Source of the DNA: an uncultured Lewinella sp.
GTDB lineage: Bacteria > Bacteroidota > Bacteroidia > Chitinophagales > Saprospiraceae
Length of the DNA: 39,310 nt
Assembly: GCA_938021455.1 (NCBI GenBank)
Contig: CALIGP010000113.1
Location: 1-39,310 of the forward strand
Direction: 5' to 3'
Position 1 is the first letter of the stretch; the number at the start of each line of letters is the position of its first letter. The notes beneath the pieces were generated by a model. It saw only the letters and a program-made list of their open reading frames with translations. It was not told where the DNA came from and did not search any database. Positions 6,093 to 24,774 of this stretch are shown here, one piece after another. The position numbers were made by a program, and so were the translations under genes.

Positions 6093-6109
6093 AAAACGCT
6101 TCGCGTTTT
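6093..6109. repeat. AAAACGC-TTC-GCGTTTT hairpin
   Basis: Perfect 7-bp stem with TTC loop; related hairpins at 24914-24930 and 25457-25483. Confidence 0.65.
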
Positions 6110-6111
6110 TT

Positions 6112-6195
6112 GCCTCCAACGCCTCCAACGCCTCCAACGCCTCCAACATGCGGTAGCCCCAACAGACCAAACTGCCAAAGAACTAAAAGACCACC
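6112..6195. repeat. Word-array repeat: (GCCTCCAAC)x4 followed by degenerate ~8-nt words ending mostly in CC
   Basis: Four exact 9-mers at 6112-6147, then AACAGACC AAACTGCC AAAGAACT AAAAGACC, abutting the stop codon of the next gene. Confidence 0.75.
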
Positions 6196-6969
6196 TTACC
6201 CTCCCTGCCGCTGCTTCAGCGCATCTTCCCGCAACCTGCGTAAGAAGGGGCTGGCGAAGATGAAATCTTCCAGCACTTTGTTGTCACTTTCCAGTACCTG
6301 GGATTTGTCGCCCGTCCAGGCGACTTTGCCGTTCTTCAGCAGCAGGATATTATCTCCGATACCCATCACGGAGTTCATGTCGTGCGTATTGATGACGGTG
6401 GTGATATTGTTTCGGTTCGTCAGGTCACAGATTAGCTCATCGATGAGGATGGAAGTCTGGGGGTCGAGGCCGGAGTTCGGCTCGTCACAAAAGAGATATT
6501 TGGGCTCCAGAACCATGGCTCTGGCGATACCGACCCGCTTTTGCATACCACCGGAGACCTCTGAGGGGTAACGGTCGTTAATGCCTTCCATATTCACCAT
6601 TTCGAGACATTCATCCACGCGTCGGTTCTTGTCTTTCAGGCTAAGGCGGGTGAACATATCCATAGGGAAACGGATGTTTTCACCAACGGTCATCGAGTCA
6701 AACAGGGCGTTGCCCTGGAAGAGCATTCCGACTTTCATGCGGATGGACCTGATGTCCTTATCGTCTAGTGAAAACAGGTTGGTATCTCCGTAAAAGACCG
6801 CTCCTTCGGAGGGGCGGAAGAGCCCGATGAGTAGCTTCAGGAGAACGGTTTTTCCCGCGCCGGAGCTACCAATAATGAGGTTAGGCTTGCCGGCGTGAAA
6901 TTCGGCCGAGACGCCCTTGAGAACGTGGTTGTCGCCGAAGGACTTATGTAGATTTTCCGTGCGGATCAT
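6196..6969 (-). CDS. ABC transporter ATP-binding protein, MlaF/Mkl type
   Basis: Walker A GSSGAGKT, signature VSGGMQKRVGIARAMVLEPKYLFCDEPNSGLDP; next to an MlaE-like permease. Confidence 0.92.
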   Translation of the reverse strand: MIRTENLHKSFGDNHVLKGVSAEFHAGKPNLIIGSSGAGKTVLLKLLIGLFRPSEGAVFYGDTNLFSLDDKDIRSIRMKVGMLFQGNALFDSMTVGENIRFPMDMFTRLSLKDKNRRVDECLEMVNMEGINDRYPSEVSGGMQKRVGIARAMVLEPKYLFCDEPNSGLDPQTSILIDELICDLTNRNNITTVINTHDMNSVMGIGDNILLLKNGKVAWTGDKSQVLESDNKVLEDFIFASPFLRRLREDALKQRQGG

Positions 6970-6982
6970 GCTTCGGTCGGGA

Positions 6983-7729
6983 TTAGGTCAGGAGGAGGGC
7001 GATGATGAAATCGAATAGCAGGATCAGGACGTTAGAAACGACCACTGCACTGGTACTAGCTTCGCCAAGTTCGATACTACCGCCCTTAACGTAGTAGCCA
7101 AAGTAGCAGCTCACGGAGGTGAGCAGGAAGGCGAAAACGCCCGCTTTGACGAACATGATGAATACGTAGCGGGGAACAAAAAAGGATCGAAGTCCAAGTA
7201 CGTATTCTGTATGGGAAATACTGCCGGGAAGAACCGTGGCCAGGTATCCACCAATGATACTAACGAAAGCAGATATAGCTACGAGTAAAGGAATGACCAA
7301 TACGGCGGCAATAACTTTGGGCATGATGAGGTAAGCAGCTGTGTTAACGCCCATGATTTCCATGGCATCAATGTGCTCTTTTTGCCGCATACCACCGATT
7401 TCGGCGGCGAGATTAGAGCCTACTTTGCCGGCCAAAACCAGGCAGGTAATCGTTGGGGCCATCTCGATGATGGTAATATCCCGGACGATGTAGCCAATGT
7501 AGTAGGACGGGATAAAGCTGTCGCCCAATTGATCTGCGAACTGAACGGCCGTTACCATGCCGATAAAAACGGAGATAAGTAGTACAATGAAGACAGATCC
7601 TACCCCGATGGCATCCATCTGGCGAACGGTCTCTTTATAGTACATAGAGAACCGTTCCGGCTTAGCGATGGCGGATTTTAGCAGCAAAATATATTGCCCG
7701 AAATTATAAAGGAATGTGTCTATCAGCAT
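6983..7729 (-). CDS. MlaE-family ABC transporter permease
   Basis: IGVGSVFIVLLISVFIGMVTAVQFADQL..LVLAGKVGSNLAAEIGGMRQKEHIDAMEIMGVNTAAYLIMPKV. ORF opens to 7810, but the first 27 codons are uncharacteristic, so ATG at 7729 is preferred. Confidence 0.9.
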   Translation of the reverse strand: MLIDTFLYNFGQYILLLKSAIAKPERFSMYYKETVRQMDAIGVGSVFIVLLISVFIGMVTAVQFADQLGDSFIPSYYIGYIVRDITIIEMAPTITCLVLAGKVGSNLAAEIGGMRQKEHIDAMEIMGVNTAAYLIMPKVIAAVLVIPLLVAISAFVSIIGGYLATVLPGSISHTEYVLGLRSFFVPRYVFIMFVKAGVFAFLLTSVSCYFGYYVKGGSIELGEASTSAVVVSNVLILLFDFIIALLLT

Positions 7730-7846
7730 GTGTCGGCCGGATCGTTTTGCGGTGCGGTATGGGGCCCGTCCCCGCAGGCTTGCGGGTTGGTAGAACGTAG
7801 TGCCTGCCACTTAGGTTGGCGATATTACAAATTTAGTGCAAATCTG

Positions 7847-7864
7847 GGCGCGGCCGCAGGTGCA
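7847..7864 (-). repeat. Dispersed TGCACCTGCG repeat, short form
   Basis: GGCGCGGCCGCAGGTGCA; one mismatch to the reverse complement of TGCACCTGCGTCCGCGCC. Confidence 0.7.
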
Positions 7865-7896
7865 AGGTGAATATCTTTAAAAGCAATGAGAACCCC

Positions 7897-7999
7897 GGTT
7901 GAGGAGCTCCCGCTCCGAAAATTCGAGCCCAAAGGGCGAGCTAATACCTAATGGCAGGCTGCTGCGCGGCTGGTTTTTCGGAGTAGGAGCTCTTCAACC
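7897..7999. repeat. 103-bp inverted-repeat element
   Basis: GGTTGAGGAGCTCCCGCTCCGAAAA .. TTTTTCGGAGTAGGAGCTCTTCAACC; arms of about 25 bp with 3 mismatches. Confidence 0.65.
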
Positions 8000-8035
8000 A
8001 CTGTACACTAGTCACCTTGCTCCTTTACCTCCCTC

Positions 8036-8077
8036 TGCACCTGCGGACCCCGCTGAGCCTGCCGAAGTGTCCGCGCC
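8036..8077 (+). repeat. Dispersed TGCACCTGCG repeat, long form
   Basis: TGCACCTGCGGACCCCGCTGAGCCTGCCGAAGTGTCCGCGCC; contains both halves of the short form around an internal block. Confidence 0.7.
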
Positions 8078-8079
8078 GC

Positions 8080-9390
8080 CTACACCCGTTCTTCCGCCGT
8101 GGCCGGGACACTGATGTCAAAGTAGTAAGCGATCAGGCCAGCCACCACGTTGAGCAACCCGAGTAGGCTTTCCATCGGCTGGTTGATGAAAAGGTAGACC
8201 AGTGACCAGGCACTGAAGGCCAGGAAGATGATCTGAGGAAGTGGATAAAGGGGCGAGGAGTAACCCGCTTCTCCTTTCTTCTGCCACCGTAAAATGAGTA
8301 AGCCCAGCACCGCCAAAAAGGTGAATAGCTGAAGCACAAATCCGCTGTAGAGCAGGACTCTCTCGAAGCTGGACGTGAAGACCAGGAACAGGCTGATGCC
8401 CCCCTGTAGCCAGGTTGCTCTCTGCGGAATACCGCCTTTGCTGAGCTGACCAAAAGTGCGCCACAAATGATGGCTATCGCCCATCGCTCTTACTACGCGT
8501 GGCCCGACCCAGATCATGGCAGAAATACCCGTCAGCAATAAAATACCGATCAAAACACTGACCCATTGGCCCATTGCGGGGCCGAACATTGCGGCGGAGG
8601 CTACCTGCGCTACATCAATCTGTCCGCTGAGAGCAGCCGTGCCCGCTTGCCGTAAAAAACCATACTGTAGGAGCAGGAACAATCCACTAACCAACAGCGT
8701 ACCGCCCACTAGTGCAAGCGGCAAATTTTTTCTGGGCTCTTCAATTTCTTCTACGATATACGCCGCGGCATTCCAGCCGGAAAAGGCATAGAAAACGCTG
8801 ATCATGGCGACCGCTGCTCCTGGGGACCAGAGCGTACTCATTCCTCCGAAGGACCAGTTGACAACGGCGTCTGCCGGCGCGGGCATAAAGGTACCCGCCA
8901 GGCCTAACCCCAGCACCACCAGCAGTTTTACGGCCGTTAGCACGTTCTGTAAGCGGCTGGATTCCCGGGTGCCAAAACCATGAGCAAGCGATAAAATGAC
9001 AATACTCATCACGGCCGTAAGTAGGGGCGGCCAGCCCGTCCAGGCAGCCAGATATTGTCCTACGGCCATAGCCGACAGCGCAACGGCAGCAGCAAAGCCA
9101 ACCGTAAGGCTAACCCAGCCACTCAGGAAGCCCATGAGCGGATGAAAGATCTCGCTTAGAAAGTGCGCCTCTCCGCCGGAGCGGGGCAATCGAGTACCTA
9201 GCTCTGCATAACTTACGGCACCACACCAGGCAACTAAGCCGCCAATGGCCCACAGCAACAGCAACACTGAACCACTGGGGATCAACTCCAGTTGAAACCC
9301 AAGGGTGGTAAAGGCGCCCGTACCGATCATGTTGGCCACTACCAGTGCCGCAGCACTCCGCCAGCCGATTGTTGCTTTCAGCCGATTCAT
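8080..9390 (-). CDS. APC-superfamily amino acid permease
   Basis: GWRSAAALVVANMIGTGAFTTLGFQL..GGLVAWCGAVSYAELGTRLPRSGGEAHFLSEIFHPLMGFLSGWVSL; multiple TM segments. Confidence 0.9.
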   Translation of the reverse strand: MNRLKATIGWRSAAALVVANMIGTGAFTTLGFQLELIPSGSVLLLLWAIGGLVAWCGAVSYAELGTRLPRSGGEAHFLSEIFHPLMGFLSGWVSLTVGFAAAVALSAMAVGQYLAAWTGWPPLLTAVMSIVILSLAHGFGTRESSRLQNVLTAVKLLVVLGLGLAGTFMPAPADAVVNWSFGGMSTLWSPGAAVAMISVFYAFSGWNAAAYIVEEIEEPRKNLPLALVGGTLLVSGLFLLLQYGFLRQAGTAALSGQIDVAQVASAAMFGPAMGQWVSVLIGILLLTGISAMIWVGPRVVRAMGDSHHLWRTFGQLSKGGIPQRATWLQGGISLFLVFTSSFERVLLYSGFVLQLFTFLAVLGLLILRWQKKGEAGYSSPLYPLPQIIFLAFSAWSLVYLFINQPMESLLGLLNVVAGLIAYYFDISVPATAEERV

Positions 9391-9464
9391 CGAAGTAAGA
9401 AACTGCTAAGCAGGAAGATTTCTGTTGTGGCGGCAGCGAGGTAACGTAGTTTTAACGTTTGGGG

Positions 9465-9583
9465 GCAGGTTAACAGGTTGCAGGTTACAAGTTGCAGGTT
9501 CTAAGTTGCAGGGTTCAGGTTGTATGATCCCTGCAACCTGCAACCTGCAACCTGCACCCTGAAACCTGCACCCTGCACCCTGC
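9465..9583. repeat. Heptamer word array in inverted arms
   Basis: Left arm GCAGGTT-type words (9465-9525); right arm CTGCAAC/CTGCACC words (9530-9583); arms are reverse complements at word level. Confidence 0.85.
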
Positions 9584-10324
9584 CTATTCCCCCCCACCAG
9601 CCCGGTGTAGAGCCGGAACCGTAATGGCAATAGCTGAGCCAGCGATAAAGCCTACCAGTACGTCGGTAAAAAAATGCTTGCCAGCTCTCATGCGCCCGTA
9701 AGCTACGGTTGCCGGGATGAGTGCAGCAGCTGCCCAGATGTAGGGTTTTGCCTTACTGTTGGGGTGTAAGTCACTGTAGAGTTGTGCCGTAGTGAAACTG
9801 AAGTAAGCGGAGGTTGCTACGTGCCCGCTGTAGAAGGAATAGCGGCTGGACTTTTTTAGCTTCGTATCCAGCGGAGCATCAGGGTTGTAGTTGTATGGGC
9901 GAGCTCGTTTGGCGACTACTTTAGAGAGGTTAATTAGAGCTGAGTTCAGCATCGCTCCCTGAAAAACGACCATTGCCATATCGTCGAAATTGTCTCTTCC
10001 GGTCTTATCTAACATTAGAAAGAAAGGACTGGCAAAACTGGTGAGTAGTAATTTATCCGTGAACTCATCAGAAGCAAGGGATAGATGTCGGGTCGAGAAG
10101 CGATCGATACCCGGAATCTTATCGAAATCCAACATCTTGATGTCTTCTTCCGTCATGGGTTTTACCCGACGATCCAGTAGCGTAGAGCCAATCGTTAGTG
10201 TACCGCCCAATCCAATCAAGGTCGCGTTCGTCGCCTTGCTGGGGTTGTAAGGACGAAGGCCCTGGGCAAATAAGCAGGAGCTGCACAAGAAAACAAGCAG
10301 GAGGAAGAAGGAACGATGGCGCAT
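9584..10324 (-). CDS. PAP2-family phosphatase with signal peptide
   Basis: KRARPYN, YSGHVATSAYF, RMRAGKHFFTDVLVGF match the three acid-phosphatase motifs. Confidence 0.9.
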   Translation of the reverse strand: MRHRSFFLLLVFLCSSCLFAQGLRPYNPSKATNATLIGLGGTLTIGSTLLDRRVKPMTEEDIKMLDFDKIPGIDRFSTRHLSLASDEFTDKLLLTSFASPFFLMLDKTGRDNFDDMAMVVFQGAMLNSALINLSKVVAKRARPYNYNPDAPLDTKLKKSSRYSFYSGHVATSAYFSFTTAQLYSDLHPNSKAKPYIWAAAALIPATVAYGRMRAGKHFFTDVLVGFIAGSAIAITVPALHRAGGGE

Positions 10325-10429
10325 AATGATATTCAGCTTTTCGAAAGGACCCTGTTAGTCAATCAGGCTTCTAGCCGACAGACCACTAGGGCTACAACCG
10401 ACAAAAGTAAGGGCTTGTTTGGCAGCAGA

Positions 10430-11380
10430 TCATAATCCAAGGCCTAAGGCACTACGTTTCTCCCCGTCTGCTACGCTGTTTTGTGACCAATAAGGCGCGC
10501 GAACCTGGTGGCTCAGGCGGGCTACGGTGGTCAGTTTTTTACCACGACTTGGGTAAGTTTCCGTCCAGCCGCGGACGACATAAGGCGCTGCGGCATCAAA
10601 TACGAACTCGACCTTCCGATCAATCCCTTCGTAGGTTATAGAGTAGCTTTTGAGCTTTTCTTCGGTGAACTGGTCGCCGGAGTACTCTTGCAGGCTGGTG
10701 GTTGCTTTCGCGGATGCATAGGGCTTATGGGTCATGAGCAGATAACCGGTAGCCGGAATGATGTTGAAGGACCCGGTAGGTAGGTTGTCCCAGCCGCTTC
10801 TGATGCGATTAAAAATTTCGTCTTCGATAAAATCAGCGCCTAAGCGTTGGTTTTGATCCGCTTCCCGTTCAAAATAAGAGCGAAGCTGGCTGTCCCACTT
10901 TTTGCCGCCAGCATAGTTGAGTTGGGTGAAGGTTTGTCCGCACCAGTCTTGCATACTGGTGGTTACCTTCAGGCTATGAGGTTGCTCATCCGTTTTAGTA
11001 GGGGTGAAGGTGGAGGTCATAACGGAGTAGTCATAAATTCCGGTAGTAAACCGTCGGATCATATTCGTCTTAATGACGGGGGTGGAAGCCGGGTTAGTGT
11101 AGTTGTCGTTTTTAACCTGCTTATCCGTCAGAAAATCTTCAGAAACGAAGATCAAACTGACCTGGCCTGGGTGAATTTCTCCGTAGCGGATTTGCTCGAG
11201 TTCGTAGGTGTTTATTTCAGCTTTTCCTTCATACCAGTATTTAGAAAGACCTCCGGAAAAATGACCGGGGACCGTAGCGGCGGTTTCTGAGGCCGTTTTG
11301 GAAGCAGTTTCAGCAGTGTCCTGTACGGTATTACAATTGAGTAGTAATAGTGGGAAAAGGAAAAGAATGAAGTAGCGCAT
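10430..11380 (-). CDS. Conserved Bacteroidota lipoprotein of unknown function
   Basis: Lipobox LLLLNC; SKYWYEGKAEINTYELEQIRYGEIHPGQVSLIFVSEDF. Confidence 0.7.
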   Translation of the reverse strand: MRYFILFLFPLLLLNCNTVQDTAETASKTASETAATVPGHFSGGLSKYWYEGKAEINTYELEQIRYGEIHPGQVSLIFVSEDFLTDKQVKNDNYTNPASTPVIKTNMIRRFTTGIYDYSVMTSTFTPTKTDEQPHSLKVTTSMQDWCGQTFTQLNYAGGKKWDSQLRSYFEREADQNQRLGADFIEDEIFNRIRSGWDNLPTGSFNIIPATGYLLMTHKPYASAKATTSLQEYSGDQFTEEKLKSYSITYEGIDRKVEFVFDAAAPYVVRGWTETYPSRGKKLTTVARLSHQVRAPYWSQNSVADGEKRSALGLGL

Positions 11381-11537
11381 ACTTTAGAAACGTTCAAACG
11401 CCTCCCTGGTTTTTAGAGGCTTCTATGCTGCGGAACAGAACGCTGTTATCTGTGAAGATCAGCTCAATTATAGACTGTATAACAACTGTATTATATACAA
11501 TTACAGATGTTCAAAAAAAGTGCCTACCTTAGCGACG

Positions 11538-11631
11538 ATAGTTTACTAATGCACTCATTTTATCTTGTGGCCCCATCGTTACGATGGGGCCCAAGCTTTT
11601 TTTCTCAGCCCGTCATAGGGCAGTAAACTAT
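11538..11631 (+). promoter_or_regulatory. Structured leader / candidate attenuator upstream of the PorE-like gene
   Basis: Outer inverted repeat ATAGTTTACT (11538-11547) / AGTAAACTAT (11622-11631) enclosing an intrinsic terminator. Confidence 0.5.
11564..11603 (+). terminator. Strong intrinsic terminator in the leader
   Basis: CTTG(T)GGCCCCATCGT-T-ACGATGGGGCCCAAG then CTTTTTTT; 15 bp with one bulge; T-run only on + strand. Confidence 0.8.
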
Positions 11632-11657
11632 TTACTCCCCATCACCGCCCATTCTTT

Positions 11658-13655
11658 ATGCCTGCTGTATCAAAAGTACTGTTCTTTTTATGTTGGCTGA
11701 TCCTGGCTGGCCATTTGTCTGCTCAGCGGGGGAATGACAGAGCAGGAGCTACCGCCGCTTTTGATGATGGTGTACAGTTCCTTCTGGCGGCGAAACCCAA
11801 AAAAGCCGCAAAGTCTTTTTACAGTTCCACCAGGTTGGACACTGCCTTTATTCCCGCACGTCGTTTATTGGGCGTAGCGGAAGAGTTAAACGGCAATCTG
11901 TCAGAAGCTGCAGGCGCCTACCAGTATGTGATTGAGAAAGATTCTTCTTACTCCAGGCTGATTTATTACCAGTTGGGTAAAATCTATTACCGAATGTCTC
12001 GGCCGGCATTGGCCCTACATTATTTGCTTAAGTTTGAAGAACTACAAGAGCGTGACCTTGGGGAGTTTGGACGTAATGGAGAGTCTGAACGACAAGAAGA
12101 ATTAGCCGCTCTGGAGCGGCTAGTCAACGATATTCGGGCGGCAAGTATAACGCAGGACAGCTCGCAGTTTATCAACGTTACCAAGCTGTTTAATCTCGGT
12201 ACTCCGGTGAACTCCTCCCGAAACGAGTACTTGCCTTTTTTTAGTAATGATCAGTCTGGATTGCTCTTCACCCGGCAGGGAGAATTGGGAGACGAAGACC
12301 TGATTAAAGGCAGAAGAGGAAACTTAAGCGATAATTTCAAAATATCCCGTTTTGCCAGTGTCAACAGTACCCCCAGAAAAGAGGGAATGGCAACTTTAGT
12401 TCGGGACGGAGAACGCATATTTTTTACCGTCTGTAATGACGATGAGGAGGAGCAATTTTGTAAAGTATACAGTGGATGGCTTATCAATGGTAAAATCGAA
12501 AGGGCCGAGAAGTTACCGGATTATATCACTGGTCGTACCTGGGTAAGCCAACCGGCCATTAGTTGTGATGGACAGCAGCTTTTTTTTGCCAGTATCCGGC
12601 CAGGTGGGGTGGGGGGCAGCGACATTTACCGCTGTATCAAACAGGACGATGGAAGTTGGTCTGAACCCAAAAATCTCGGTACTGGCGTCAATACACCTTT
12701 AAATGAAGAAGCTCCCTTTCTTAGCAATGACGGGCGCACGCTCTACTTTTCCAGTGAAGGACATCAAAATCTGGGCGATCAGGATATTTTTATGAGTTGG
12801 TGGGACGTCATTGAAGGCCGGTTTACCCGGGCCATCAATCTTGGTCCACCCGTCAATGGACCTCATCGTGAACTGGGGTTCCATCTTACCTCCGACGGAA
12901 AAACGGGATACGTAGCCAGTAACCGACCCGGCGGTTATGGTGGGTTAGACATCTACGGCTTTGAGTTGTCTGACCGGCTGAGTAGCCAGCCCGTCACTTT
13001 TGTTTCTGGTTACGTAGCGGATAGCCTGACTGGAGAGCCGATTCCCGATCAAAGAGTCCCCGTCACGGACGGAAATACTTACTACACCAACTATGAAGGG
13101 CGGTTCTTTATCTGTGCTCCTTCGGAAAGCACTTTGCCAATCACGGTAAACAACCCGGAGTATCTGTCTTATGAGCGGGATTTTGCTATCCCTAATTGGG
13201 CGAACCAGGAACCGTACAGAATCGATTTATTGCTGCGCACCGAAAAAGTAGTGGAGCCCCCAGCTCCACCTCCGCCCCCAGAAAGGGTGGATACCGTTAA
13301 GCTGAAGGCAAGAGTGGTGAATCGAAACCTGACCGTTCGGTTTAATTTTGACGACGCCAGCCTCACACCAACTCAAATCGAGAACATTGAGAAATTTGTC
13401 GTTTCGGTTAAGGATAAGCACATTATGCGAATCGTTGTAACCGGGTTTACGGATGACGTGGGCGATAAGGCTTACAATATTCGCCTGAGCCAGAACCGGG
13501 CAAAGGCCGTTGGTATTCACCTGCAAACAGCCGGAATCAAAGCCAATGAAGTGAAAATTGTGGGGATGGGAGAACTCAGTGGAGCCGGTCAACGTGCCCT
13601 GAACCGTAAGGTGGAAGTCTCCGTTCGGTACCGCGAAATGGTGGATCCCGACTAA
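11658..13655 (+). CDS. PorE-like protein: TPR + PD40/WD40-like propeller + regulatory domain + OmpA-like C-terminus
   Basis: TPR-like N-term; repeated QPAISCDGQQLFFAS and APFLSNDGRTLYFSS; VSGYVADSLTGEPIPDQRV; OmpA-like VVTGFTDDVGDKAYNIRLSQNRAKAVGIHL. Confidence 0.8.
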   Translation: MPAVSKVLFFLCWLILAGHLSAQRGNDRAGATAAFDDGVQFLLAAKPKKAAKSFYSSTRLDTAFIPARRLLGVAEELNGNLSEAAGAYQYVIEKDSSYSRLIYYQLGKIYYRMSRPALALHYLLKFEELQERDLGEFGRNGESERQEELAALERLVNDIRAASITQDSSQFINVTKLFNLGTPVNSSRNEYLPFFSNDQSGLLFTRQGELGDEDLIKGRRGNLSDNFKISRFASVNSTPRKEGMATLVRDGERIFFTVCNDDEEEQFCKVYSGWLINGKIERAEKLPDYITGRTWVSQPAISCDGQQLFFASIRPGGVGGSDIYRCIKQDDGSWSEPKNLGTGVNTPLNEEAPFLSNDGRTLYFSSEGHQNLGDQDIFMSWWDVIEGRFTRAINLGPPVNGPHRELGFHLTSDGKTGYVASNRPGGYGGLDIYGFELSDRLSSQPVTFVSGYVADSLTGEPIPDQRVPVTDGNTYYTNYEGRFFICAPSESTLPITVNNPEYLSYERDFAIPNWANQEPYRIDLLLRTEKVVEPPAPPPPPERVDTVKLKARVVNRNLTVRFNFDDASLTPTQIENIEKFVVSVKDKHIMRIVVTGFTDDVGDKAYNIRLSQNRAKAVGIHLQTAGIKANEVKIVGMGELSGAGQRALNRKVEVSVRYREMVDPD

Positions 13656-15854: not shown

Positions 15855-15880
15855 TACCTTTGGCGCAAATTAGAGACCCG

Positions 15881-16618
15881 ATGGTACGACTTTCCGTTAA
15901 CCTTAATAAAGTAGCCCTTATCCGCAATAGTCGGGGGGCTGATTATCCCAATCTGGTAAAAGTGGCGATGGACTGTGAGCAATTTGGAGCACAGGGAATC
16001 ACCATTCACCCAAGACCCGATCAACGACACGCCCGCTATGATGATGTAGCCGCGCTGAAAGCAGTAGTTACCACAGAACTCAACATTGAGGGCTACCCCG
16101 CGGAGCACTTTAATCAGATCGTACTGACTAACCGACCGCATCAGGTGACCCTTGTGCCCGATGAACCCGGTCAGCTTACCAGTGATCATGGATGGGACAC
16201 CGTCGGTAAGGCTGATTTCCTAGAGGATGTGCTGGCGGGCTTTCGGGAAGCGGGCATACGAACCTCTCTATTTGTTGATCCGGACGAAAAGATGATCGAA
16301 GGGGCCAAAAATGTTGGGGCTGACCGGATTGAATTCTACACAGGCCCTTTCGCGCACCAATTTTCTACCGATCGGGCTGCTGCGGTTGCTCCTTTCAGTC
16401 ACGCTTGTCGTTTTGCGCAAGAAATCGGGATGGGGATCAACGCAGGCCATGATCTTAATCTGGACAACCTGACTTATTTTGCCAGCCGGATGCCCGGACT
16501 TCAGGAAGTGAGTATCGGTCATGCGCTGGTAAGCGATGCCTTATATTACGGTATGGCCAACACGATTGCTATGTATCGGAGCTGTCTGGCCAACGCTGAA
16601 GCTCTTAAAGAAGGGTAG
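15881..16618 (+). CDS. pdxJ: Pyridoxine 5'-phosphate synthase
   Basis: VRLSVNLNKVALIRNSRGADYPNLVKVAMDCEQFGAQGITIHPRPDQRHARYDDV; GINAGHDLNLDNL. ORF track starts at TTG 15860, which falls in a TAnnTTTG match; ATG 15881 preferred. Confidence 0.93.
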   Translation: MVRLSVNLNKVALIRNSRGADYPNLVKVAMDCEQFGAQGITIHPRPDQRHARYDDVAALKAVVTTELNIEGYPAEHFNQIVLTNRPHQVTLVPDEPGQLTSDHGWDTVGKADFLEDVLAGFREAGIRTSLFVDPDEKMIEGAKNVGADRIEFYTGPFAHQFSTDRAAAVAPFSHACRFAQEIGMGINAGHDLNLDNLTYFASRMPGLQEVSIGHALVSDALYYGMANTIAMYRSCLANAEALKEG

Positions 16619-16641
16619 CGGTAGCTTACAGGAATGGTACA

Positions 16642-16690
16642 TTTCGACTGATGAGAGAGAAATTTCGACGAAAAACGGCTGTTTTTCGAC
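16642..16690 (+). promoter_or_regulatory. Three TTTCGAC direct repeats at 21-bp spacing
   Basis: TTTCGAC at 16642-16648, 16663-16669, 16684-16690. Confidence 0.6.
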
Positions 16691-16720
16691 GTAACGGAGC
16701 ACAATAAAAAAAATTGTTAT

Positions 16721-16750
16721 TTGGTCAGGCAGCGAAATATTTTAACTTTG
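16721..16750 (+). promoter_or_regulatory. Promoter of the susC-like operon
   Basis: TTG (16721-16723), 19-nt spacer, TAACTTTG (16743-16750); implies a ~235-nt leader. Confidence 0.7.
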
Positions 16751-16759
16751 CGTTCACAC

Positions 16760-16796
16760 TTTAGAAGAATATGTGTTTTTCAGTACATCTTCTAAA
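16760..16796 (+). promoter_or_regulatory. Stem-loop at the predicted 5' end of the susC mRNA
   Basis: TTTAGAAGA / TCTTCTAAA perfect 9-bp stem just after the predicted TSS. Confidence 0.55.
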
Positions 16797-16993
16797 CTTA
16801 GATTCAACAACGTTTACACGGTTTTCGGAACATTCTACTACACTTATCAAGCTACACTCTACATCCTCCCCCCCAAGAATAAACAACCAAAAGACATCTA
16901 GCGATCCAAAGATTTTGGTGGGTTAGCCCCATCCTTTATAAAACCATATTTCTTAACCATTTGAGACTAGTAATCAACTAAATTTCGACTAGA

Positions 16994-19900
16994 ATGAAGA
17001 GAATTTCACTAGTGATTGCCATCGTCTGTCTTGCCTTTAGCGTAGCTATGGCACAGCGGACGATTTCCGGCGTCGTACAAGACGATACCGGTGAATCCCT
17101 TATTGGAGCATCCTTGCTCGTTAAGGGAACAACTTCCGGTACTGTTACCGACATTGACGGAAGATTTTCCCTGGCCGTTCCGGCCAACGCAGAGTTACTT
17201 GTTGTCAGCTACACGGGCTTTTCCACTTTGGAGTACCCCATTGGAACTGCCAGCGAAGTAACCATCACCCTCGCTGAGAGCGCTTCTCAGCTTAATGAGG
17301 TAGTAGTAACCGCCCTTGGTATCCGTAAGGAGAAGAAGGCACTCGGTTACTCTGTTGCTACTATTGGTTCCGGCCAGGTAGAAAACAGAGTAGAATCCGA
17401 CGTGGGCCGTATCCTTCGTGGTAAGGCAGCAGGTGTTGATATTACCCAGACGTCCGGTGTTGCCGGTTCTGGTACGAATATCATTATCCGTGGTTACAGC
17501 TCTATTTCTGGCTCTAACCAGCCGCTGTTCGTTGTTGACGGTGTGCCGTTCAACTCTGCTACGAACACCGACCAGGGCTTCCAGACAGGTGGAGCAACGG
17601 CTTCCAGCCGCTTCCTTGACCTTGATCCTAACAACATTGCTGAGATCAACGTACTGAAAGGACTTTCTGCTACTGTACTTTACGGTGAGCAGGGTGCTAA
17701 CGGTGTAATCCTCGTAACGACCAAGAACGGTCAAGGTGGTGCTGAAGCCAAGAAAGGCTTTGAAGTCAGTGTTACGCAAGGTGTTGCGCGTACTGAGGTA
17801 GCCAACCTTCCTGAGTACCAGAACAGCTACGGTAACGGTTTCTCCGGAAACTTCGGTTGGTTCTTCTCTAACTGGGGACCTTCTTTCGATACTCGCGGAT
17901 CCAACGGTATTGATGAGAACGGCCAGATTGAGCACCCGCTTGATCAGGATCGTTACAACGCTGCCTTCCCAGAATTCGAAGGTGCTCGTTACGACTACCG
18001 CCCATATGACAACGTTTCTGAGTTCTTCCAGGCTGGCTCTGTGTACAACACGAGTGTCAACGTAGACAAGAACTTCGGCAACGGTATTAGCTTCAACGCT
18101 AACTACAGTTACCTGGACGATACTGGCTTTGTTCCTCAGAACACTTTCCAGAAGCACAACGCTGGTGTTGGTGGTAAAGTAGACCTGGCCAACGGCCTGA
18201 AGATCTCTACTTCCCTCAACGTTGTAAGCTCTGAGCGCGTTTCTCCACCGGCCTCTATTGGTTTCGGTTCTAACCCTGCCGGCGCTTCTGTTTTCGCCAA
18301 CGTACTGTACACCCCTCGTTCGGTTGACCTTGCGGGTCTTCCTTTCCAGAACCCAATTGACGGAAGTCAGGTGTACTACCGTCGTGGCTCTGCTATCCAG
18401 AACCCACGTTGGGGACTGGCTAACATGTTTGACCGCGAGCAGGTAAACCGTTACTTCGGTAACGTTGCCCTTAGCTACAGCATCACGGACTGGCTGACCG
18501 CCAGCTACCGTATTGGTGTTGATACTTACAGCCAAATCAGCCGCCGTGAGATCAACAAAGGTGGTGCGCAGGTGCCTGATGGCCAGCTGCTTACTTCTAA
18601 CCGTGACAATACGATCATTGACCAGGTACTGAACCTGAGCTTTGACACGGAACTCAGTGAGTCTTTCAACCTGAGTGGTATCATTGGTGTGAACAACCGT
18701 ACTGACCGTTTTAACCGTACCACGGTTTCTTCTACTCAGCAGTTCATCTTTGGTCTCTTTAGCCAGAGCAACTTCATTGAGCACGTAGGTACACAGTTCG
18801 AACAGAACGAAGGCCAGGTGGGTCTTTACGGTAGTGTAACGGCTGGTTTCAACCGCTACCTCTACCTGACGGCTTCTGCTCGTAATGACTGGAGTTCTAC
18901 ACTAGAAGCAGCTAACCGTTCTATTCTTTACCCATCGGTTAGTGTTGCCTTCGTTCCAACGGATGCATTTGAGAGCCTCCAGGGTAGCCGGGTACTGAAC
19001 TACTTGAAGCTGCGTGCCGGTTACGGTACTTCTGCCCGTTTCCCTAATCCTTACACCACCCGTCCAATCCTGGGTAGTTCTACCAACGTCAGCCAGACTC
19101 CTGGTGGCGCTGCATTGAACACCAACTTCGTGAACAACCGCCTTGGTAACACGAATCTGAACCCTGAGCTTCTTGGTGAGCTTGAGTTTGGTGTTGAAGG
19201 TCGTTTCTTCAATAACCGCGTAGGTCTTGACTTCTCTGTTTACGATAAGCAGTCTAGCGACCTCCTCGTTGACCTTAACCTTGACCCTGCTTCCGGCTTT
19301 ACCGTTACTACAATCAACGCTGCCGAAGTATCTAACAAAGGTATTGAGGTTAGTCTGAACCTGATTCCCGTTAAGACTAAGGACTTCACCTGGGACATGA
19401 CCTGGAACCTGACGTCTAATGAGAACGAAGTAATCAGTGTTGCTGACGGTGTTGATCAGGTAACCATTGCTGGTTACACCAACCTGGGTAACTTTGCCAT
19501 TCCTGGCCAGCCATTCGGTGCTATTCAGGGTTCTGCCTTCGTACGTGGCCCCAACGGCGGCCTGCTCGTAGGTGCTAACGGTGAGTACCAGGCAACTAAC
19601 GACATCGAAGTTATCGGTGATCCAAACCCTAACTACTCTGCGAACTGGTTGAACACGGTTAGTTACAAAGGCTTAAGCCTCAACTGGCAGTTCTCTTATA
19701 CGGACGGTGGTGACATCTACAGTGTAACGACGGCTACTATGTTGGCTCGTGGTCTTACTTCTGATTCTGACTTTGACCGTTTCCTTCCTCTCATCCTTCC
19801 GGGTGAGGATTCTGAAGGTAACGCGAACACGGTTCAGGGTTACGTAGGTGACTACGGTTTTGCCGCTTTCTTCGGTGCGAACGAAGGTTCCATCTTTGAC

Positions 19901-20155
19901 GGTACGGTTATCCGCCTGCGGGAGATTGGCCTTGGTTACTCTCTGCCTGCTAGCTTGTTGGACAAGACTCCATTCGGTAGCATCACGCTTCGTTTGGTTG
20001 GCGAAAACCTATACTACTACGCGCCCAACTTCCCTGAAGGGGTGAACTTCGACCCGGAAGTTCTTTCTCTTGGTGTAGGTAACGGCCGTGGCTTTGACTA
20101 CCTCACTGGCCCAACGGCCAAAAAGTACGGTGCTACTATTAGCCTTACTTTCTAA
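16994..20155 (+). CDS. SusC/RagA-family TonB-dependent outer membrane protein
   Basis: N-terminal RTISGVVQDDTGESLIGASLLVKGTTSGTVTDIDGRFSL; plug LNEVVVTALGIRKEKKALGYSV..GVILVTTKNG; C-terminal aromatic end. Confidence 0.97.
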   Translation: MKRISLVIAIVCLAFSVAMAQRTISGVVQDDTGESLIGASLLVKGTTSGTVTDIDGRFSLAVPANAELLVVSYTGFSTLEYPIGTASEVTITLAESASQLNEVVVTALGIRKEKKALGYSVATIGSGQVENRVESDVGRILRGKAAGVDITQTSGVAGSGTNIIIRGYSSISGSNQPLFVVDGVPFNSATNTDQGFQTGGATASSRFLDLDPNNIAEINVLKGLSATVLYGEQGANGVILVTTKNGQGGAEAKKGFEVSVTQGVARTEVANLPEYQNSYGNGFSGNFGWFFSNWGPSFDTRGSNGIDENGQIEHPLDQDRYNAAFPEFEGARYDYRPYDNVSEFFQAGSVYNTSVNVDKNFGNGISFNANYSYLDDTGFVPQNTFQKHNAGVGGKVDLANGLKISTSLNVVSSERVSPPASIGFGSNPAGASVFANVLYTPRSVDLAGLPFQNPIDGSQVYYRRGSAIQNPRWGLANMFDREQVNRYFGNVALSYSITDWLTASYRIGVDTYSQISRREINKGGAQVPDGQLLTSNRDNTIIDQVLNLSFDTELSESFNLSGIIGVNNRTDRFNRTTVSSTQQFIFGLFSQSNFIEHVGTQFEQNEGQVGLYGSVTAGFNRYLYLTASARNDWSSTLEAANRSILYPSVSVAFVPTDAFESLQGSRVLNYLKLRAGYGTSARFPNPYTTRPILGSSTNVSQTPGGAALNTNFVNNRLGNTNLNPELLGELEFGVEGRFFNNRVGLDFSVYDKQSSDLLVDLNLDPASGFTVTTINAAEVSNKGIEVSLNLIPVKTKDFTWDMTWNLTSNENEVISVADGVDQVTIAGYTNLGNFAIPGQPFGAIQGSAFVRGPNGGLLVGANGEYQATNDIEVIGDPNPNYSANWLNTVSYKGLSLNWQFSYTDGGDIYSVTTATMLARGLTSDSDFDRFLPLILPGEDSEGNANTVQGYVGDYGFAAFFGANEGSIFDGTVIRLREIGLGYSLPASLLDKTPFGSITLRLVGENLYYYAPNFPEGVNFDPEVLSLGVGNGRGFDYLTGPTAKKYGATISLTF

Positions 20156-20232: not shown

Positions 20233-21969
20233 ATGAAACTATTCAAGAAAATTGCTCTGGCAATGATCGTCCTTTCCATGGCCGCCTGTGCCGATTTGGA
20301 CGAGTTGTTGATCAATCCTAACGGTGTAGATCCGTCGCAGGCGGACGCCGTTTCTCTTTACAACAGTGTTCAACTGGGCTTCAGAAATGTGGCTTACAGT
20401 GGGGCTGTTTATAACTTCACTACGGGACTTTCCCGCATGGAAGCCGAAACGGGAGGTTTTACCTACGTAGCGACTCACGCTCCTACTGAATTCAGTGGCT
20501 TATGGAGTGCTGCCTACGCCGGTCTCTTCCCTGACATCGATGCTTACATTGCTATTGCTGAGCCACTTGGCCTTGACGCAGAAGTTGCTTCTTGTAAAAT
20601 CATGAAGGCCTACTCTCTATTGATGATGGTGGATCTTTTTGACGACATCCCACTGAGCCAGGCAGGTATGGGCGGTGCTGACACACCAAACACGACGCCA
20701 ACGGCCGATTCTGGTGAGGAAGTGTACGCTGCTGCAAACACCCTGCTCGACGAAGCAATTGCTGCTCTCGCTAGCGGCGAAGGCTTTGCAAGTGCGGCCT
20801 TTGATAACTTCTACGGTGGTACTGCCGCTGATTGGAGCAAGGTGGCCTCTACTCTGAAGCTGCGTACGGCAGTTACCACTAAGCTAGCTGGTGGTACTGG
20901 CGCTCAGGTTAACGCCCTCGTTGATGGTGGAGACCTTATCGTAGCTAACGGCGATAACTTCGAGTGGACCTACGGTACTAACCGTGCTAACCCGAACAAC
21001 CGTCACCCGTTCTACAACAACTCTTACGAGAACAACGACGGTGCTTACATGTCTAACTGGTACATGTGGTTGCTGGCGGAGTCTAAGGGTTTTGTTGATC
21101 CACGGACGCGCTACTACTTCTTCCGTCAGGAGACGGATCTGGAATCTATCTACTCGGATCTGGACGGAGCGAATGCTTTTGACTGTATCCTTACCCAAGT
21201 ACCGGACGTGGATTTCATTCCTCCTCACTACGAGGCGGTAAGTCCTGATATGCCTTACTGTTTGGGCAGCTACGACCTTAGTTACTTTGGTCGTGATCAC
21301 CTGAACGGTTCTGGTATTCCGCCGGATGGAGCTATCCGTACCGTGTACGGTCTGTACCCCGCTGGTGGTAAGTTTGACAACGACATCGATAACGGTGACA
21401 TTCAGAACGCTGGTACTGATGGTGCTTTAGGTGAAGGTGTTGCCCCAATCTGGCAGGCTTCCTGGACGCACTTCCAGTTGGCTGAAGCTGTTCTTACTAT
21501 GGGAGCTAACGGCGATGCCCGCCAGCTACTGGAAGATGGTATTAAACTGTCTCAGGAACGTGTAAGAAGCTTCGAAGATAAGGTTGATGGTAACCGTATT
21601 TTGGCTACTGTTCCTACAATTGTAACGGTTGCCGACACTTACGTTGCTGATAGCCTTTGGACGGAGTACGTAGACTTCGTAATGGCGGAGTATGATGCTG
21701 CTGGTAGTGATGATGACCGCATGGCCGTCGTTGCCCGTGAATACCTGATTGCTCTTTGGGGTAATGGTATTGAGGGTTACAACCTGTACCGTCGTACTTG
21801 TCTGCCTGCTAACCTTCAGCCATCCATTGACCCGGCTGCTGGTAACCCATTCATCCGCTCTGCGCTTTACCCCGCTACGCACGTTAACCTGAACCAGAAT
21901 ATTACCCAAAAGGAGAACATTACCACTCCGGTATTCTGGGATACGAATGACGCTAGTTGTAACTACTAA
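20233..21969 (+). CDS. SusD/RagB-family nutrient-binding lipoprotein
   Basis: Lipobox MAAC; immediately downstream of SusC; SusD-like C-term EYLIALWGNGIEGYNLYRRTCLP. Confidence 0.93.
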   Translation: MKLFKKIALAMIVLSMAACADLDELLINPNGVDPSQADAVSLYNSVQLGFRNVAYSGAVYNFTTGLSRMEAETGGFTYVATHAPTEFSGLWSAAYAGLFPDIDAYIAIAEPLGLDAEVASCKIMKAYSLLMMVDLFDDIPLSQAGMGGADTPNTTPTADSGEEVYAAANTLLDEAIAALASGEGFASAAFDNFYGGTAADWSKVASTLKLRTAVTTKLAGGTGAQVNALVDGGDLIVANGDNFEWTYGTNRANPNNRHPFYNNSYENNDGAYMSNWYMWLLAESKGFVDPRTRYYFFRQETDLESIYSDLDGANAFDCILTQVPDVDFIPPHYEAVSPDMPYCLGSYDLSYFGRDHLNGSGIPPDGAIRTVYGLYPAGGKFDNDIDNGDIQNAGTDGALGEGVAPIWQASWTHFQLAEAVLTMGANGDARQLLEDGIKLSQERVRSFEDKVDGNRILATVPTIVTVADTYVADSLWTEYVDFVMAEYDAAGSDDDRMAVVAREYLIALWGNGIEGYNLYRRTCLPANLQPSIDPAAGNPFIRSALYPATHVNLNQNITQKENITTPVFWDTNDASCNY

Positions 21970-23247: not shown

Positions 23248-24774
23248 ATGCCATTTCTGGGGAGTCTCATTAAGACTGCACTTGACCTTAACGCTCAGTT
23301 TACTTCTTTGCCGGACCAACCCCGGAAAACGCAAGAGGAGCAACTGCGCTACCTACTTTCTACCGCCGAAGGAACTGCTTTCGGACAGTACTATGGCTTC
23401 AGCTCTCTTCTGGAAGAAGAGGATGTCATTTCAAGTTACCAGCGCCGTGTACCGATTTTTGACTATAAAACGCTCCAGCAACGCTGGTGGAAACAGCAGC
23501 AGGATTTTCCTAATATAACCTGGCCCGGACAACCAGGTTTTTTTGCGTTGAGTTCTGGCACTACCGGTAAAAAAAGCAAGCGAATCCCCGTCACGGATGA
23601 AATGCTGCATGTGTTTCGCAGTGTGAGCCAGTCACAGATCGCGGCTTTAGCTAATTTCGATTTGCCGGCTGATTTATATGAAAAGGATATACTAATGCTG
23701 GGGTCTTCAGCTGACCTGAAGGCGCATAAACACCACCTGGAAGGAGAGATTAGTGGCATTAATAGTAGTAATATTCCTGGATGGTTCGACGGCTTTTATA
23801 AGCCGGGGAAAGAAATTGCTAGTATTGACAAATGGGAAGAGCGGGTGGCTGCTATCGCTAAGGCTGCCCCTGAATGGGATGTAGTGGCCATTGCCGGAAT
23901 CCCCTCCTGGGTTAGAATGATGCTCATAAAAATCATTGAAACGCATGGATTGGACACCATTCATGATATGTGGCCCAACCTTAAGCTTTATGCAACGGGT
24001 GGTGTTGCCTTTGAACCCCACCGGAAGAGTTTTGAGGCGCTGGTCAGGGAACCTCTTACTGTGATGGATACTTATTTAGCATCAGAAGGCTTCTTTGCCT
24101 TCACTGCTCGACCCAATACCATGAATATGCAACTGGCCGTTGAGCATGGCATATTTTATGAGTTTATTCCCTTTGATGAGCGAGGCTTTGACGAAACGGG
24201 GTCGCTGTTGAAAAACCCAGTTGTACACGACTTGGGAGAGGTAGAAGAGAATCAGGAATATGCACTACTGGTGAGTACGCCGGCAGGAGCTTGGAGATAC
24301 ATGATCGGAGACACCATTAAGTTTAAAGATCTGGAGAAGTACGAGATCGTGATTAGTGGGCGAACGAAGTATTTCCTGAACGTGGTGGGTAGCCAGTTGA
24401 GTGAAGAGAAGCTGAACGCTGCGGTAGGCGAGGTGGCTAAAGAGTTGGGAGAAGAGATTAATGAGTTCGCCGTTGCGGCCGTTAAGGAGGAGAGTGGAGA
24501 GTACATCCACCAATGGGTACTTGGCTCCCCTTCAGGAGCTTTAAACCCTGAACGAGCTAAAAGTCTTCTGGATGCATCCCTGCAGGAAAGAAACAAAAAC
24601 TATCGGGTGGCGCGTGAAAAGGCACTGAAAGGACTTGCTGTACGGTCGGTTAAGACCGAAACAATCTATAACTGGCTCGAAACGGGTAAGAAAAAAGGAG
24701 GACAGATTAAAGTCCCTAAAGTAATGAAGGAGAAGATGATGCGGTCTTTGCTGGGGCATTTGGAGAAGCTTTAA
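23248..24774 (+). CDS. GH3 auxin-responsive promoter-family protein (acyl-adenylase fold)
   Basis: FFALSSGTTGKKSKRIPVTDEML; LYATGGVAFEPHRKSFEALV; YRMYMIGDT-like WRYMIGDTIKFKDLEKYEIVISGRTKYFLNVVGSQLSEEKL. Confidence 0.92.
   Translation: MPFLGSLIKTALDLNAQFTSLPDQPRKTQEEQLRYLLSTAEGTAFGQYYGFSSLLEEEDVISSYQRRVPIFDYKTLQQRWWKQQQDFPNITWPGQPGFFALSSGTTGKKSKRIPVTDEMLHVFRSVSQSQIAALANFDLPADLYEKDILMLGSSADLKAHKHHLEGEISGINSSNIPGWFDGFYKPGKEIASIDKWEERVAAIAKAAPEWDVVAIAGIPSWVRMMLIKIIETHGLDTIHDMWPNLKLYATGGVAFEPHRKSFEALVREPLTVMDTYLASEGFFAFTARPNTMNMQLAVEHGIFYEFIPFDERGFDETGSLLKNPVVHDLGEVEENQEYALLVSTPAGAWRYMIGDTIKFKDLEKYEIVISGRTKYFLNVVGSQLSEEKLNAAVGEVAKELGEEINEFAVAAVKEESGEYIHQWVLGSPSGALNPERAKSLLDASLQERNKNYRVAREKALKGLAVRSVKTETIYNWLETGKKKGGQIKVPKVMKEKMMRSLLGHLEKL

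Follow-up and report, generated by a model that had tools for sequence, protein, structure and literature searches.

A three-box direct repeat kept at 21-bp steps upstream of an orphan susC-susD operon in Neolewinella, a probable operator for an unlinked activator

SusCD importers whose control is known usually adjoin a gene for SusR, for a hybrid two-component system (HTCS) regulator or for an extracytoplasmic function (ECF)/anti-sigma system. How might such an operon be regulated when none of these lies beside it? The question arises in a 39,310-nucleotide stretch of DNA from an uncultured Lewinella sp. (GenBank assembly GCA_938021455.1, contig CALIGP010000113.1, positions 1 to 39,310; hereafter the window), whose source genome belongs to Neolewinella and whose own assembly is ~56% complete. 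Here we describe an array of three TTTCGAC boxes, sited in the 375-bp intergenic region between pdxJ and susC, which probably serves as the operator for a transcription activator whose gene lies elsewhere in the genome. A first-pass annotation, made from the letters alone, had described the operon as lacking a linked regulator, and a Pfam scan of the window's larger genes bears this out: the operon's surroundings yielded no gene for SusR, an HTCS or an anti-sigma factor, and the sole DNA-binding regulator recovered was an ECF sigma factor (436-972), ~15.6 kb off. The susC-susD pair may be regarded as an orphan importer, unlike SusCD importers that have a regulator gene adjoining them.

The three copies of TTTCGAC occupy positions 16642-16648, 16663-16669 and 16684-16690, at steps of exactly 21 bp, and the last is separated by exactly 30 bp (16691-16720) from the TTG of the susC promoter; coordinates, spacing and promoter distance all agree to the base with those first reported. 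All features of the array and promoter lie on the forward strand. Box 1 (ATTTCGACTGATGA, 16641-16654) has its TCGAC core at 16644-16648 and its centre at about -109, box 2 (ATTTCGACGAAAAA, 16662-16675) its core at 16665-16669 and its centre at about -88, and box 3 (TTTTCGACGTAACG, 16683-16696) its core at 16686-16690 and its centre at about -67. These positions are relative to a transcription start predicted at ~16755 from the promoter TTTG-N19-TAACTTTG (16720-16750), in which TTTG lies at 16720-16723 and TAACTTTG at 16743-16750; a TAnnTTTG box at -12 to -5 has been described previously (PMC9723704). The promoter is near-invariant within the genus, including its spacer GCAGCGAAAT. Conservation also extends well past the -33/-7 boxes, over the spacer and downstream bases GGCAGCGAAATATTTTAACTTTGCGTTCA (16720-16757), which suggests an additional constraint on the promoter region.

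The heptamer alone is not rare, occurring nine times in the window against 5.85 expected from shuffles; it is the arrangement that is unusual. Any 7-mer tripled at equal spacing (period 8-60) was found in 0.7% of dinucleotide-shuffled windows and, when the 375-bp intergenic region alone was shuffled, in 0.02% of copies, the latter figure being uncorrected for the case having been picked from the whole window. The real window holds two further equally spaced 7-mer triples of lower complexity. One, near 6112, belongs to a 9-bp tandem repeat GCCTCCAAC (6112-6140) that opens a 153-residue open reading frame (ORF) with no Pfam match, and the other, near 9477, to an intergenic cluster (9477-9580) in which degenerate copies of GTTGCAGGTT / AACCTGCAACC recur with periods of 14 bp and 7 bp and in either orientation, resembling repetitive extragenic palindromic elements.

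Key to the interpretation of the array is its conservation, on which the first-pass annotation had staked its proposal. A search for exact heptamers gave the impression that the array is unconserved, since boxes 1 and 3 survive as exact words only in N. agarilytica, the nearest relative, whose SusC is 96% identical; this impression was misleading and was overturned when the upstream regions of 11 genus loci, including the window, were aligned without gaps on the -33 element. In this promoter-anchored layout seven of the 11 species (the window, L008, L009, L011, L012, L014 and L016) carry three degenerate boxes at exact 21-bp steps in the same promoter register, and the first-pass proposal withstands this check; in all seven the C of the box 3 CGA and the -33 TTG are 33-35 bp apart, and in L014, box 1 falls within the 3' end of pdxJ. 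The actual motif is wider and looser than TTTCGAC, reading roughly (W)TCGAY(S)AAW, and most of the information resides in columns 7-15 of each 21-bp unit, the other 12 columns contributing little. Box 2 is the best conserved, over ~14 bp, and reads ATCGACCAAATTAT in several relatives.

To evaluate this pattern we trained a 14-column matrix with the clade of the tested species left out, then applied it to the locus of that species. Each of the seven array-bearing species ranked first among 6,100-11,944 positions at the expected register, with one base of play, and in all seven a spacing of 21 bp outscored all others between 14 and 30; the per-species offsets were picked after the sequences had been seen, a bias that leaving out the clade corrects only partly. 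An earlier version of the test, run without L011 and with uncorrected offsets, pointed in the same direction and was weaker for the window (105 of 78,508 positions scoring better) and for L012. The four remaining loci (L010, L013, L015 and L017) fail under the matrix. In the SusC tree, array-bearing species fall on either side of the deepest split among the 11 genus members, so that the history of the array is likely to have been a single gain followed by several losses, with four tips appearing to have lost it.

The geometry lends itself to a simple mechanism. Three subunits would sit on the three direct repeats along one face of the DNA, where identical contacts are expected because the repeats lie two helical turns apart, and the bound activator would assist RNA polymerase at the -33/-7 promoter in transcribing susC-susD. 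Contact with RNA polymerase, and hence activation, is suggested by the fixed distance to the promoter together with the upstream position. Protein binding is a matter of inference, and for activation and cooperativity we infer from the geometry of the array only.

Several observations weigh against an activator operator. The four species that fail in the held-out test, 4 of the 11, have the same promoter with no recognizable array, and the promoter can therefore exist without it. In addition, a regulon that might confirm the motif did not emerge: in each of the seven array-bearing genomes a sequence profile of the array matched strongly only at the susC locus (E 1e-8 to 6e-6), and all other matches had E values of 0.012 or worse. 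The profile was trained on these same seven sequences, making its own scores uninformative, and the result lies in the lack of a second strong site, a confinement to one locus that also counts in favour of the operator reading; the source assembly is incomplete, while N. agarilytica and the other array-bearing genomes are near complete. Exact TTTCGAC pairs occur genome-wide at chance level, and with one strong profile site per genome the genome-wide set of phased TTTCGAC arrays that the first-pass annotation had proposed to look for finds no support; a scan for TCGAY triples was uninformative, because coding sequence overwhelmed it with matches in codon phase. Furthermore, no AraC or LytTR regulator tracks the presence of the array in the profiled genomes (G002, G012, G016 and G004); several genes are common to array-bearing species and nearly all of these occur in array-poor ones too, in a profiling that is weak in that AraC genes were fetched only in part for G004 and not at all for G000. 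When the regulator loci that had been fetched were scanned for signs of autoregulation, nothing comparable to the array turned up, Rfam contained no relevant family, and a literature search on Lewinella, SusC and promoter returned nothing relevant.

We nevertheless favour an unlinked activator, with the LytTR type slightly ahead of the AraC/HTCS type. Regulator genes of both kinds abound in the genus (8-27 LytTR and 10-28 AraC matches per genome), and none of the LytTR genes is linked to the array. A regulator of the LytTR type, for which the analogy lies in the short core and the number of repeats, may be the one involved. LytTR sites consist of 9-bp repeats with 10-13 bp linkers, of which RcoM-1 and CoxC use three, every 18-21 bp; for RcoM-1, as for most LytTR proteins, binding takes place upstream of the -35 (PMC11347149). 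Alternatively, two subunits of an HTCS or free AraC-type protein could occupy two boxes 21 bp apart with the third box as auxiliary, a variant of the same activator reading with another protein family, and one that we consider a real if somewhat less probable prospect. It is favoured by the ~14-bp conservation of box 2, a stretch that resembles an AraC half-site more than the 9 bp of a LytTR repeat, and by the susCD setting, HTCS motifs upstream of susCD averaging 21 bp between direct repeats (PMC3878776). However, known HTCS motifs comprise two sites, and the HTCS genes analysed sit in the locus, whereas the array is a triplet to which no regulator is linked.

That the array serves a repressor, or is an auxiliary site bound by a nucleoid protein, is improbable: CoxC, a LytTR repressor, likewise has three repeats (PMC11347149), but these overlap the -35 element, whereas the nearest box of the array stops 30 bp short of the -33 element. 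Still less credible is a chance repeat or functionless relic whose likeness among relatives reflects shared descent. Its absence or decay in four species and the weakness of all matches outside the genus would agree with this, the matches in question coming from a profile search across the family, in G114, G087 and G153, with per-genome E values of 0.0007-0.008 over 120 genomes, possibly at chance level. Against it, between non-sister species the core columns are 77% identical while the remaining columns have diverged to 37%, and the 21-bp register has been maintained across species whose SusC proteins are 77-85% identical. Equally hard to credit is that boxes 2 and 3 are the arms of an inverted repeat serving as a pdxJ terminator or palindromic operator, since the arms seen in the window (CGAAAAAC-GGCT-GTTTTTCG), as a perfect 12-bp pair in N. 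agarilytica and imperfectly in L009 are absent from L011, L012, L014 and L016 although all four keep the 21-bp direct repeat, which is therefore the conserved feature, and since the window RNA has a fold z-score of -0.66. The boxes do not show the GC-rich stem and following U run of an intrinsic terminator, there being no U-tract and no terminator call, and we rejected a palindrome or terminator as a conserved feature, confined as it is to those three sequences.

Beyond the genus, a related word may be in use. Across 120 family genomes, 9 of the 16 classified TTTCGTC pairs with a 21-bp step fall between genes, compared with 2 of 22 pairs that are spaced otherwise (Fisher p 0.002); once a locus of tandem repeats next to a Rep3 gene is set aside, the count becomes 7 of 14 against 2 of 22 (Fisher p 0.009). 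This comparison was noticed post hoc, covers only loci that were fetched, and uses control spacings that are mostly multiples of three, where coding sequence predominates; in total the pairs are no more numerous than in a reversed-pattern control, and we treat the intergenic excess as a lead, not a result. L316, from another Saprospiraceae genus, has a TTTCGTC pair with a 21-bp step 31 bp beyond a LytTR gene, a placement expected ~8% of the time by chance on a rough estimate; there a direct repeat of 17 bp, TTTTTCGTCCCAACCTA, recurring after 21 bp (1501-1545) between LytTR and DUF2306 genes, makes a good candidate LytTR operator. A further pair in L322 (1501-1530) precedes a small ORF (MAKKKLQLEDLKVNSFITNLDAKKSNQVKGG...) that looks like a peptide leader of the double-glycine type, and the approximately eight 21-bp units (CCTATATTTATTGCCTTTCGT) beside the Rep3 replication initiator gene in L323 (1440-1640) are probable plasmid iterons. 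That TTTCG(A/T)C every 21 bp is a Saprospiraceae-wide word, read by unlinked LytTR regulators of outer-membrane importers and other genes, seems to us rather unlikely; if true, it would represent a SusCD regulatory layer apart from SusR, HTCS and ECF/anti-sigma control.

Downstream of the promoter, a 239-nucleotide 5' leader is predicted from the alignment (16755-16993, forward strand), its 3' end being a conserved block that holds a fourth TTTCGAC. This copy, which the first-pass annotation had placed correctly at 16983-16989, does not belong to the array, since it is part of a genus-conserved block spanning leader and start codon (GAGACTAGTAATCAACTAAATTTCRACTAGAATG) that is conserved for other reasons; relatives read TTTCACC, TTTCAAC, CTTCAAC or CATAGAC in its place. 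The last 50 nucleotides of the leader (ACCATATTTCTTAACCATTTGAGACTAGTAATCAACTAAATTTCGACTAGAATG) are conserved in the genus, and TAATCAACTAAA is also found upstream of a neighbouring susC paralogue in G011 (C1:205513).

The genes pdxJ, susC and susD-like all lie on the forward strand. Upstream of the array lies pdxJ (15860-16618), encoding pyridoxine 5'-phosphate synthase (Pfam PdxJ, E=2.7e-90); the pdxJ-susC order is held at 10 of the 11 genus loci, was not seen in L017, and is also present in many other Saprospiraceae. Downstream, susC (16994-20155) encodes a SusC/RagA TonB-dependent importer (TIGR04056, 551.8 bits) whose top PDB match and closest solved structure is BT_2264 (E=2.2e-116), and it is followed by a gene for a SusD-like lipoprotein (20233-21969; Pfam SusD-like / SusD-like_2), with BT_2263 among its PDB matches. 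BT2263-64 is a peptide carrier, and the susC-susD pair, a BT2264/63-like importer, may by analogy carry peptides too. Further along, a GH3-family protein (23248-24774) has a sub-threshold match to the lyso-ornithine lipid synthetase OlsH (301 bits, cut-off 620).

As a conserved, single-locus, putative three-repeat operator, the array offers a defined 56-bp bait for the importer's regulator, and the sister species L014 and L013, with and without the array respectively, provide a natural comparison.

Together these features can be set against those of characterized systems. As in LytTR operators, the array combines core repeats of 8-9 bp with linkers of 12-13 bp. Its consensus is TTCGACSA instead of the TTCNNGCA / TTNNNGCN of RcoM-1 and CoxC, and the GC of the published RcoM consensus TTCNNGCA is not kept, a match that is not required of all LytTR proteins; moreover, RcoM-1 and CoxC are proteobacterial with known cognate regulators, unlike the array, and CoxC differs further in overlapping the -35 and in being a repressor. 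With the HTCS operators of Bacteroides susCD genes the array shares direct repeats of ~21 bp upstream of susCD-like genes in the Bacteroidota; it differs in having three boxes with ~9 informative columns instead of two sites of 12-16 bp, and in that no AraC or HTCS protein occurs among the window proteins scanned, whereas HTCS regulators are encoded within their glycan loci. SusR operators are also direct repeats upstream of susC operons, but their repeats lie 67 or 77 bp apart (PMC3878776) as opposed to 21 bp. Finally, the likeness to the BT2263-BT2264 pair informs at most the transported cargo and not the regulation, for which it is the LytTR and HTCS operators that offer the nearest parallels in geometry.
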